A stretch of DNA of 64,000 bases from Apostichopus japonicus (Eukaryota > Echinodermata > Holothuroidea > Aspidochirotida > Stichopodidae): the NCBI RefSeq assembly GCF_037975245.1, contig NC_092575.1, positions 11,178,501 through 11,242,500 of the forward strand, written 5' to 3'. The position numbers were made by a program, and so were the translations under genes. The notes under the pieces are model-generated. The model had not been told where the DNA came from. It saw only the letters and a list, made by a program, of their open reading frames with translations, and made no database searches. Positions 4,622 to 47,595 of the stretch are shown here, piece after piece. Each line of letters opens with the position of its first letter. Within the stretch, counting starts at the first letter, position 1.

Positions 4622-4783
4622 GCACATACTTTCACCTACAAAGACCCATCTGCCTGCAAGACTATAAACCAAAGGGGATGTTGTGACAAACCAACTTTGA
4701 ACATTGAACATTTTTCTGGAAAATGCATAATTGACAACTTATTAGAAGTTGGGGCAAAGTTTTCTGATGTTGTTGCACTTTAA
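4622..4783 (+). pseudogene. Degraded exon-like stretch at left edge of unit A
   Basis: After an acceptor-like TTATTTTTTCAG at 4608-4619, a 54-codon frame stays open to TAA at 4781-4783. It is cysteine-containing (for example KDPSACKTINQRGCCDKPTL). The homologous stretch in unit B (28363-28488) stays open longer and ends with an Ig-like TASGYYRYNF. The two copies differ by frameshifts, so I treat both as decayed. An Ig-type exon is one possible origin, and a LINE-derived piece is another. Confidence 0.25.
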
Positions 4784-5053
4784 GCTTCCGTTTACCGCTT
4801 AGGATATTAGCGATAAAAACTTATGAGAACAGGAAATGTGTACTTAGATCGACTCCAACCTTCTAACAGAAAACCGACCAAACATAACAATTCTGCCACA
4901 CTGGAAGAGAGTAAGGGAGAAACCATGGAGCTATAAACAGATGGAGAAACTATCAAGTAGGCTGTAGTATTGTTCGATACAGGTGACAAACGCCTACAGT
5001 GGAATTACGACCTTCCTTGCCGGTACCGGTTTCGAACCTCTGGACATACAATC

Positions 5054-5172
5054 AGCGTCCATAGTCTGGTGGTTAGGGTGTCGGCGTACAAAGCGGGAGG
5101 CCCGGGTTCGAATCCCGGTGGGGGCTGGAAGTTTTGTCACTGTTCTGGATTTTCCTTCTCATTACGTTTTCA
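5054..5172 (+). repeat. tRNA-derived SINE-like element
   Basis: Positions 5054-5127 form a tRNA-like head. An A-box-like TAGTCTGGTGGTTAGGG and a perfect B box GGTTCGAATCC (5105-5115) are followed by a 3' GGGGGCT that partly pairs with the 5' AGCGTCC. The non-tRNA body (to about 5172) runs directly into a long (AT)n tract, which may be its tail. The anticodon arm is degenerate, so this is a SINE or tRNA pseudogene. It is absent from unit B. Confidence 0.6.
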
Positions 5173-5269
5173 ATATATATATATATATATATATATATAT
5201 ATATATATATATATATATATATATATATATATATATATATATATATATATATATATATATATATATATA
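5173..5269. repeat. (AT)n microsatellite
   Basis: About 97 bp of uninterrupted TA dinucleotides follow the SINE body. Confidence 0.95.
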
Positions 5270-5503
5270 AATATGTATAATATTACTTTATTACTTTAGG
5301 TAAGCAACAGGGAGGGAATACATCAGGATCGTAAACGTTTACATCGCCTATTGCGAACCTTCTCATTTTTGAGATGTTGTGTGTCAAGCGTAATTGTTAT
5401 CGCTCGAAATCATCGTCTCTTTATCAAACAGTAAGTCCAAGGTTTAATGCTTTTTGGTTCTTTCACTCATGTTCTACAGGATTACAACTTCCTTCAATCG
5501 TCC

Positions 5504-5558
5504 ATGATGCCGGTCTTAAAACATCTATGGTTAATCGTCACTATGTGCATTCTACACG
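5504..5558 (+). CDS. Copy A exon 1: signal peptide
   Basis: Encodes MMPVLKHLWLIVTMCILH plus the first base of the next codon. The core LWLIVTMCIL is a typical hydrophobic signal segment. The donor is CG|GTAGGA; copy B has the weaker GTGGGA at the same place (28978-29032). Confidence 0.75.
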
Positions 5559-44655: not shown

Positions 44656-44659
44656 AATT

Positions 44660-45290
44660 ATGTACATAACTAGCAGGGTGTGTTACAGGGATTCCTTGAT
44701 TAACCTAAAGTAATCTAACTAACACGGTGTGTTACAGGGATTCCGTGATCAACCTAAAGTAACCTAACTAGCAGTGTATGTTACAGGGATTCCGTGATTA
44801 ACCCTGAAGTAACCTAACTAGCAGGGTGTGTTACAGGGATTCAGTGATCAACCTAAAGTAACCTTACTAGCAGGGTGTGTTACAGGGATTCAGTGATTAA
44901 CCTTGAAGTACCTTAACTAGCAGGGTGTGTTACAGGGATTCAGTGATCAACCTAAAGTAACCTTACTAGCAGGGTGTGTTACAGGGATTCAGTGATTAAC
45001 CTTGAAGTACCTTAACCAGCAGGGTGTGTTACAGGGATTAAGTGATTGATCTAAAATATCCTAACTAGCAGTGTGTGTTACAGGTATTAAGTGATTGATC
45101 TAAAATATCCTAACTAGCAGTGTGTGTTACACGGATTCCGTGATTAACCCTGAAGTAACCTAACTGCAGGGTGTGTTACGGTGATTCAGTGATTGATCTA
45201 AAGTATCCTAACTAGCAGGGTGTGTTACAGGGATTCCTTGATTAACCCTGAGTAACGTAACTAGCAGGGTGTGTTACAGGGATTCCGTGG
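44660..45290 (+). repeat. ~49-bp minisatellite, unit B
   Basis: About thirteen units of the array described at 19460-19980, with higher-order duplication of a two-unit block (44821-45010). Confidence 0.9.
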
Positions 45291-46379
45291 TTGAGTTTGT
45301 TCGCATTCACCATCTTCTGACGGAAGTTGTCTGAATCGAGTAAAACAATCCTGACCGATCCTGAAAATAATAATGAAAGAGAAGATTTAAGTCAGTGATA
45401 GAAAACAAACGTGCAAGGTGGGTGGGGGTGGGCTAGAGGAGGAGGAAGGCAGAAAAGAAAGTAGAGGTCATAATTTACATGCACAATGGAATGTAATTCT
45501 GCATCATTCGAAGACACATCCATGTTACTGGTAACTTGATGTCCTGAAGGAAACTTTTTTAAAGATCCTGTGTTCGCTTGCAATTGCTTTCGGTACGCAT
45601 TCGGTACTGATATCTCCATATATCTCTGTATTGTAGCAGAGAAGGGCCACACCATATACTTCGGGCGGGGGTCTTTCTCCCCTTCCCCAGAAAAAAGGAG
45701 AGCTCAGCCCAATCCTCACCCCCCCCCTCCCCCCAACACACACACCGGCAGACGGAATATTATAAAATGTACAGTACAAAAACATACAACAAACGTGTGC
45801 GGCACAACCTAAACAGTTGTAAAGCTTCAACATTGATTCAAAAGTTGCAACATTTAGCACCATTTTGCATCCTAGGCACCCTCCCCTTGGTACCCCTCCC
45901 TGTACGATATATCACCTACAACCACCCACCCCCGTTCACGGACGTTTTCTCTCGCAATAAGGTTACTATTAACCAGTTAGCATTATAGGATTCATTTAAG
46001 GTACATAAAAAATACAAATTTGGATGGTCGTCTTCGGTTTTCTGATGGCTACTGGATATATTTATACTGAATAGAAGAAATTTGTGGGTTTTTTTTCTCA
46101 GATTTGACCCCAAAAAACATATTGATGATAAACGTCTGAATAGATTTGATGCACACGCCAGCAGTACGTGTTCTTTTAGGACATATTTGATCAATATTAC
46201 ATTATTATATTAAAATAGAGTTAGTAAGTTGACGGAGTTCATAATCTTATTTGAAGTTTTAAGGAAGGTATAGCAAATCTTGAAACTAATAACGATTTAA
46301 CAAGCATATCAGATATTGTGATTGAACGCTTTACTAGTTTTACTCAGTTGTATTTCTAATCGTCTAACGTTCAATTCCG

Positions 46380-46740
46380 TTAATTGTCAAACATTTTCTT
46401 TTAATAAAATGTCTGACAATAATTAACGGAATTGGACGTGGTGGTACTATTCAGGAATGTCACTCTAGAAAGAACCTGGGCATGAAAACCAAACTACCGA
46501 ACGACTGATCCGCTCTCAACCCCAGTCCCCTTGCATCAGGACTGTGACTGTGTGACCATCGTCGGGTGTGCATCGCCATTCCCCCAGAAAGGGAACAGAT
46601 ACTACACATGATCTTAGCCAAAAGGCCGAGAAGCGTTTGTTATGACACTAAGGCAGGCTATAAACGCTAGCAGAAAGAAGAAAAAGGAACCGACTTAAGG
46701 AAAGTTTAAAACGTTTGTTTCGCTCTGGAGGCCAGTTTGG
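46380..46740 (-). repeat. U2-snRNA-derived chimeric repeat, unit B (best copy)
   Basis: Minus strand 46635 to 46593 matches U2 snRNA positions 3-45 at 42 of 43 bases, including GGCCTTTTGGCTAAGATC and the branch-site-recognition region GTGTAGTATCTG. Right after U2 position 45 it switches to an unrelated ~100-bp tail (46490-46592) containing GATGGTCACACAGTCACAGT (interrupted by small differences) and GATGCAAGGGGACT. The same junction and tail occur at 52898-53051. Real U2 would continue TTATCAG and the Sm site, both absent, so it is not a working U2 gene. SINEs with U1/U2 heads are known in crocodilians. Confidence 0.65.
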
Positions 46741-47539
46741 ACTTTAGTGACTCGTTTACTAGTTGGAGATACTTTCAATTCTTCCTTGCATGTCTGTATA
46801 GTTATCTATCAGAATTATGTGTTATTTTCGTTATCGTCTGATCTTTGATCTCATATTTTAAAGTATACGTGTTATCGTCAGGTCGTTTTAGATATAATTG
46901 GAATGTTGGAGTGTTGATGTTGACTTTGAGAAATAAGGTACATTCTCTGGTTGAAAAATTTTTTGTAACAATCTTTCTAGATTTAAGCATTACTTCCGTA
47001 GAGCTTTGAATGGGTTTGCGTCGACTATATTTCAAACTATTTCTGAAATGCAACCTATAAGCTTAATGGATTGTCACCTAACTAGTGTAACCACCCGACA
47101 TATATACTTAAATGATTGTTTATAAGCATACTAAAATGCAGAGATGGCAAATTATGTTTAGACTATCGAAATGGTTTGGTTCAGTTCCTACAGATCATTC
47201 GTGTTTAAAGAGAAATACCCCCCTCTGTTCGCTTTGCAAAATTATGATCCACACCACAATTCTATGCAACTATCACAAGTATGCATTTATGACGTATCAT
47301 AGCAGCGTTTTGTGACATGCACCTCGTAAATTCTTCTTACGAGAGCAAGATGAAGACACATATCCCACAGAAACGGGTCTGAAGAGCTACATCAGGGAAT
47401 CCATATTGTATAATAACGATTGAATAACGATTGCCAGATACAAAAAAAAACAAATTCGTTGGAGCAAAGTGCCAGAGCTAACCAGAATCTCAGAATACCT
47501 AGAATGGACATATGTTTCGTTTCGTTTATTACAATTTCA

Positions 47540-47595
47540 ATACATACATACACACATACATACACGCACACACACATACACACACACACGCACAT
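47540..47595 (+). repeat. (CATA)n/(CACA)n microsatellite
   Basis: Imperfect ACACACATACA run at the right limit of unit B similarity. Confidence 0.8.

Follow-up and report, generated by a model that had tools for sequence, protein, structure and literature searches.

Clustered or paired receptor genes of the immunoglobulin superfamily (IgSF), and other immune genes held in duplicated segments, offer the closest described parallels to the locus reported here. In extracts from two accounts of the Hydractinia allorecognition family, one counts 40 genes that are Alr or Alr-like, potential pseudogenes included (PMC11876637), and the other gives 41 (PMC11999971); the second also covers the molluscan IgSF proteins (FREPs and molluscan defence molecule), which have Ig-like domains and defence roles; the domain make-up of FREPs is outlined in part of PMC7588048. 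The sea urchin Sp185/333 immune gene copies are described, in an excerpt of PMC5103432, as part of segmental duplications that have short tandem repeats at their edges. In primates, Siglec-11/Siglec-16 (PMC5701461) and CD300A/CD300C (PMC12447643) are presented in the relevant passages as paired IgSF receptors with opposite signalling and with gene conversion between like ectodomains. The window analysed here, meaning the whole stretch of 64,000 bases (38% GC, 0 N), holds a locus, most probably of animal origin, that we read, with a probability of roughly 70%, as a head-to-tail segmental duplication that is young, spans about 20 kb and carries two genes for single-pass IgSF surface proteins that share their binding parts, the tail being kept only in copy A.

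Two collinear units and their predicted genes

The window was compared with itself by blastn after masking of 13 simple or tandem repeat arrays. Unit A (4698-24524) was joined head to tail to unit B (28360-47539) by 26 collinear matches, 21 of them at 88-97% identity and the other five at 77-88%, and 13 blocks of 0.2-2.5 kb each were without a collinear counterpart in the opposite unit. The preliminary description had proposed two collinear units with one gene each, and one eight-exon model was indeed found in either unit. The models were predicted from sequence, with splice sites picked by reading and by shared phase, and both encode a signal peptide, an Ig region and a membrane helix, in that order, followed by a tail. 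Beyond the two gene spans, a masked tblastn search of the window gave no third copy (best E 5.2).

4698..24524, plus strand, unit A of the tandem duplication (blastn self-comparison)
5504..5558, plus strand, A exon 1, start codon and signal peptide (predicted model)
6213..6365, plus strand, A exon 2, first half of Ig1, domain by reading (predicted model)
11477..11641, plus strand, A exon 3, second half of Ig1, domain by reading (predicted model)
12005..12304, plus strand, A exon 4, Ig2, V-set, under cut-off when scanned alone (model and Pfam)
12650..13264, plus strand, A exon 5, Ig3 by reading and Ig4 as V-set/Ig_3 (model and Pfam)
13739..14119, plus strand, A exon 6, Ig5, weak Ig-like structure model (model and predicted fold)
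14613..14648, plus strand, A exon 7, short juxtamembrane exon (predicted model)
14927..15117, plus strand, A exon 8, transmembrane helix, tail with YKN, C-terminal TIDV, stop (predicted model)
24525..28359, strand not applicable, unique 3.8 kb spacer with a reverse-transcriptase fragment (self-comparison and Pfam)
28360..47539, plus strand, unit B of the tandem duplication (blastn self-comparison)
28978..29032, plus strand, B exon 1, start codon and signal peptide (predicted model)
29791..29943, plus strand, B exon 2, first half of Ig1, domain by reading (predicted model)
34467..34631, plus strand, B exon 3, second half of Ig1, domain by reading (predicted model)
34954..35253, plus strand, B exon 4, Ig2, V-set (model and Pfam)
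35602..36216, plus strand, B exon 5, Ig3 by reading and Ig4 (model and Pfam)
36762..37139, plus strand, B exon 6, Ig5, one codon shorter than in A (predicted model)
37868..37903, plus strand, B exon 7, short juxtamembrane exon (predicted model)
38184..38305, plus strand, B exon 8, transmembrane helix, 8-base deletion, 15-residue tail, TGA at 38303 (predicted model)

All seven introns of each gene are in phase 1, each begins with GT and ends with AG in A as in B, and neither exon 1 nor exon 2 differs in length between the copies. The splice sites had been called conserved, which holds for these features but not for the donor bases past GT, which differ between the copies in four introns (after exons 1, 4, 6 and 7). 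For exon 5, an acceptor about 50 bases further upstream (approximately 12598 in A) was rejected; with it, a one-base difference would lead the B frame into a stop. The acceptor preferred, 12650/35602, keeps both copies in phase 1 and places the one-base difference inside the intron. The choice leans on the assumption of an intact B, as the upstream site would frameshift the B ectodomain.

Several repeats and mobile-element remnants accompany the genes. The spacer fragment lies on the minus strand (26068-26874, Pfam RVT_1, E 3.8e-10). A U2 spliceosomal RNA match (46561-46637, minus strand, 50.1 bits against a gathering score of 46) sits in a dispersed repeat of both units and downstream (copies at 21126-21181 and 52896-53043), and looks like a U2-derived repeat rather than a working gene. 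A tRNA-family match at 5055-5126 (37.3 bits), near an (AT)n run in an A block with no collinear B match, is likely a tRNA-type short repeat. Two adjoining long open frames at 62479-63875 (218 and 212 aa; no Pfam match above cut-off) give the impression of being the front of a retroelement. A sub-threshold hAT transposase remnant (33060-33620, minus strand, Dimer_Tnp_hAT) lies in B's intron 2, and the stretch bearing it, 30928-33648, is collinear with A 8027-10779 and differs from it by only 3%. Tandem arrays at 16057-17279, 19462-19952, 41162-41674 and 44667-45289 include one of 49-base units, which occurs in both duplication units with differing copy numbers, and one of 89-base units in A, for which B has a related-looking array with periods of 58 and 167.

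Ig-like domains, membrane helix and tail

Whole-protein Pfam searches matched V-set at 44.1 bits in A and 35.7 bits in B (cut-off 26) and Ig_3 at 35.4 and 42 bits, respectively (cut-off 30), placing both proteins in the immunoglobulin superfamily by at least one Ig family match above its curated cut-off. These matches, together with the collinear units and the shared exon-phase structure, support the earlier proposal of a young tandem pair of IgSF membrane proteins.

Support for the five Ig-like domains that had been proposed varied along the protein. Ig4 was clearly supported by Pfam Ig models above cut-off, and Ig2, more weakly, by a V-set stretch in the whole protein, its exon alone scoring 21.7 bits, under the cut-off of 26. 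Ig5 gave a low-confidence Ig-like structure model (Foldseek best E 0.032, none at or below 0.001), and its exon matched no Ig family in Pfam, where the best hit, to glycosyl hydrolase 98, fell below threshold. Ig1 and Ig3 were assigned by reading: no Pfam family matched Ig1 scanned alone, and Ig3 was placed by cysteine/tryptophan spacing seen by eye, so that three of the five (Ig1, Ig3, Ig5) are without an Ig family match. The predicted structure model of Ig3-Ig4 was of poor quality. A PDB sequence search with the A ectodomain returned 13 weak matches, mostly adhesion molecules or Ig-type receptors and one isomerase (best E 0.0069); the exon 5 profile likewise matched adhesion molecules and Ig receptors (best E 0.028), and the best match of the exon 6 profile was an unrelated isomerase. 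As judged from these predictions, each protein is most likely built as an adhesion or recognition receptor of the IgSF with a single membrane pass.

By reading, Ig1 and Ig2 seem to be without the usual second cysteine of the Ig fold. Ig3 and Ig5 have a C-x5-C-x11-C spacing in common in both copies (residues 237-255 and 442-460, within 12650-13264 and 13739-14119 in A); direct comparison of the exons gave no match despite this spacing, and we do not claim an internal Ig3/Ig5 duplication.

A strong hydrophobic helix, free of charged residues by reading, follows the Ig region in both copies. Directly after it, A has an imperfect 8-base tandem repeat of which B holds one copy; the 8 bases missing from B leave a frameshifted 15-residue tail, whose first two residues match those of A and which stops at 38303. 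A short tail had been ascribed to each gene, and this stands for A, whose tail ends ...NNYKNNGEDNPAMTIDV, with one YKN tyrosine, the only tyrosine of the tail, and C-terminus TIDV; it fails for B, where the frameshift has removed the tail tyrosine. Past the deletion, only A's frame stays open in both copies to a shared stop, ending in TIDV in A and TIEI in B, and this downstream frame differs by seven replacement and three silent changes in 34 codons, T/S, M/L, D/E and V/I among them. From this, the common ancestor probably had A's frame and B would have lost its tail after duplication. We take YKN to be a tyrosine site, and TIDV/TIEI to resemble a class II PDZ ligand (hydrophobic-x-hydrophobic C-terminus); both motifs are short and may occur by chance. 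From residue 581 on, neither protein contains a Y-x-x-[LIVMF] (YxxPhi) motif. We considered faster evolution of the tail exon but do not propose it, since the share of differing bases in exon 8 (20/183) is not significantly different from that in the adjoining noncoding sequence (26/316; p 0.34).

Mosaic divergence and coding constraint

Noncoding differences between the copies were unevenly distributed. By block, they numbered 116/1,337 (5284-6855), 2/356 (6856-7211), 81/2,652 (8027-10779), 136/2,095 (10841-14465), 2/244 (14466-14745) and 26/316 (14746-15263), so divergence is 0.6-0.8% in two blocks and above 8% in two others, and exon 8 sits inside a high-divergence block. The block limits were set after the data had been seen; a chi-square test on fixed 200-base windows gave 150 with 34 degrees of freedom (p 1.4e-16), and the longest identical noncoding run, 222 bases, was reached in one of 2,000 shuffles. 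Rows 17512-18964 and 20667-21399 were left out of the divergence figures, and the values of 85% overall identity and 8.5% total divergence were set aside; all of these include overlapping or misaligned repeat stretches. The two near-identical blocks are:

6856..7211, strand not applicable, near-identical noncoding block, conversion-like, 2/356 differences from B (block divergence)
14466..14745, strand not applicable, near-identical block around exon 7, conversion-like, 2/244 noncoding differences from B (block divergence)

Recent gene conversion between the copies would explain this mosaic best; local intron constraint or uneven mutation may be alternatives.

Over the 592 codons to the end of the helix, A and B differ at 63 bases and 37 amino acids, with dN 0.028-0.029 and dS 0.059-0.068 by three methods (dN/dS 0.41-0.49). 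Random placement of the same changes gave 46.3 ± 3.3 amino-acid differences and was as low as 37 in 24 of 5000 trials. Replacements among all changes were 4/12 in Ig1, 3/7 in Ig2, 14/22 in Ig3-4 and 6/8 in Ig5, and in the Ig5 exon dN was about equal to dS (0.021 and 0.024; 8 changes). The copies are different at 45/1,458 aligned bases in exons 3-6, compared with 136/2,095 noncoding bases in 10841-14465 (Fisher p 4e-6). The introns had been described as diverged by indels, and 37 were counted in 2,752 bases of introns and flanks against 2 in the 1,688 bases of exons 3-8 (Fisher p 3e-6), the two being one codon in exon 6 and the 8-base difference in exon 8. Constraint on the coding sequence is real but moderate. 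The earlier impression that both genes are maintained fits the ectodomains (dN 0.028, dS about 0.06, few exon indels) but not the cytoplasmic tail of B.

An alternative that we consider unlikely, although no rival stands higher, is that only A works and that B is an early pseudogene whose ectodomain looks intact through youth or through conversion from A. The tail frame of B is broken, and its helix part differs from that of A by seven residues against two silent codon changes in 24 codons. The B ectodomain has no stop, an outcome shared by 379 of 5000 simulations of 63 random changes, which counts toward the preferred reading; for B alone it is weak evidence, 1265 of 5000 simulations of 32 changes being free of stops as well. 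However, the helix of B remains hydrophobic, and a long neutral history should have left more indels in its exons than there are: neutrality from the duplication onward predicts about 11 in exons 3-8 of B, where at most 2 were seen (P(≤2) 0.0009, or 0.0019 counting only indels of at most 20 bases). On this count we favor the view that B was probably maintained for the greater part of its history; conversion from A is another way in which its exons could have stayed intact. B may be a receptor without a tail, a competitor or a pseudogene at an early stage.

Readings of the locus and known systems

In the preferred reading of a young segmental duplication with two IgSF surface-protein genes, both predicted proteins would reach the cell surface, and A and B would bind the same ligand, or each other, through their Ig domains. 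A would couple to the cytoplasm through its tail, by way of the YKN site and the PDZ-ligand-like C-terminus, and B would still bind but no longer be able to use the tail. Short sequence exchanges between the copies would keep parts of them near-identical.

Equally doubtful as a pseudogene B, and compatible with the preferred reading, is the reading, in line with the earlier immune or self-recognition suggestion, that the pair forms part of an Alr-like cluster of invertebrate receptors for immunity or allorecognition. Such clusters are known (extract of PMC11876637), and the genes here are IgSF, in tandem, young and mosaic, probably through exchange between copies. As far as the Hydractinia accounts describe them, Alr genes are clustered IgSF genes with V-set and I-set domains, a likeness drawn from description rather than from sequence comparison; in contrast, only two copies lie in the window and neither tail has a YxxPhi motif. 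Tail tyrosine signaling motifs (ITIM/ITAM-like) are a feature of the Alr family; neither protein here has one, A having its single YKN. Pattern searches for relatives in viral/prokaryotic collections, where little is expected for this kind of gene, gave 17 matches in viral_contigs and 27 in genome_contigs, none confirmed.

It is less probable again, though conceivable, that the locus is a paired-receptor system soon after its birth, possibly outside vertebrates, in which conversion would keep parts alike and the 8-base deletion, by removing the signaling tail of one copy, would make it a competitor or decoy for the other. If both copies are expressed, the locus would show the start of a receptor pair with a shared ectodomain and split tails, arising from one deletion and inter-copy exchange; if B is merely decaying, it is an ordinary tandem duplicate.

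Least probable is the alternative raised beforehand, that the units are diverged haplotypes wrongly joined in one contig: noncoding divergence is about 5% (363/7,000), which falls within the range of very heterozygous animals, but homology ends at both edges of each unit, the left flank, spacer and right flank share only pieces of 39 bases or less (E 0.019 or weaker), and the window contains no N. Non-syntenic haplotype regions that carry Ig-domain genes in a phased pearl oyster genome (part of PMC9646362) were also counted in its favor. Joined alleles should repeat common flanks; because the flanks are unrelated and the spacer is unique, mis-assembly of alleles is unlikely and a real tandem duplication is favored.

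The boundaries recall those of Sp185/333 in that each unit has an AC-rich repeat at its right-hand end; unlike there, the left edges have no short tandem repeat by reading, and the units are about 20 kb long. The Sp185/333 genes are not known to be IgSF. Pfam found no fibronectin III or fibrinogen family in either protein at E ≤ 1, and the lack of a fibrinogen domain and the presence of a membrane helix set both apart from the FREPs; Dscam carries fibronectin III domains. A literature search on Ig-domain genes with gene conversion and self-nonself recognition gave no match, from which we do not claim absence from print. Compared with Siglec-11/16 and CD300A/C, to the extent that the cited passages describe them, the present pair differs in its frameshifted tail and in having neither a Y-x-x-hydrophobic motif nor a charged helix residue, and homology is not claimed. 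The resemblance is one of outline: as in those pairs, neighboring IgSF genes have near-identical ectodomains (93% protein identity in exon 5 and 95% in exon 6), signs of conversion between the copies and different tails.
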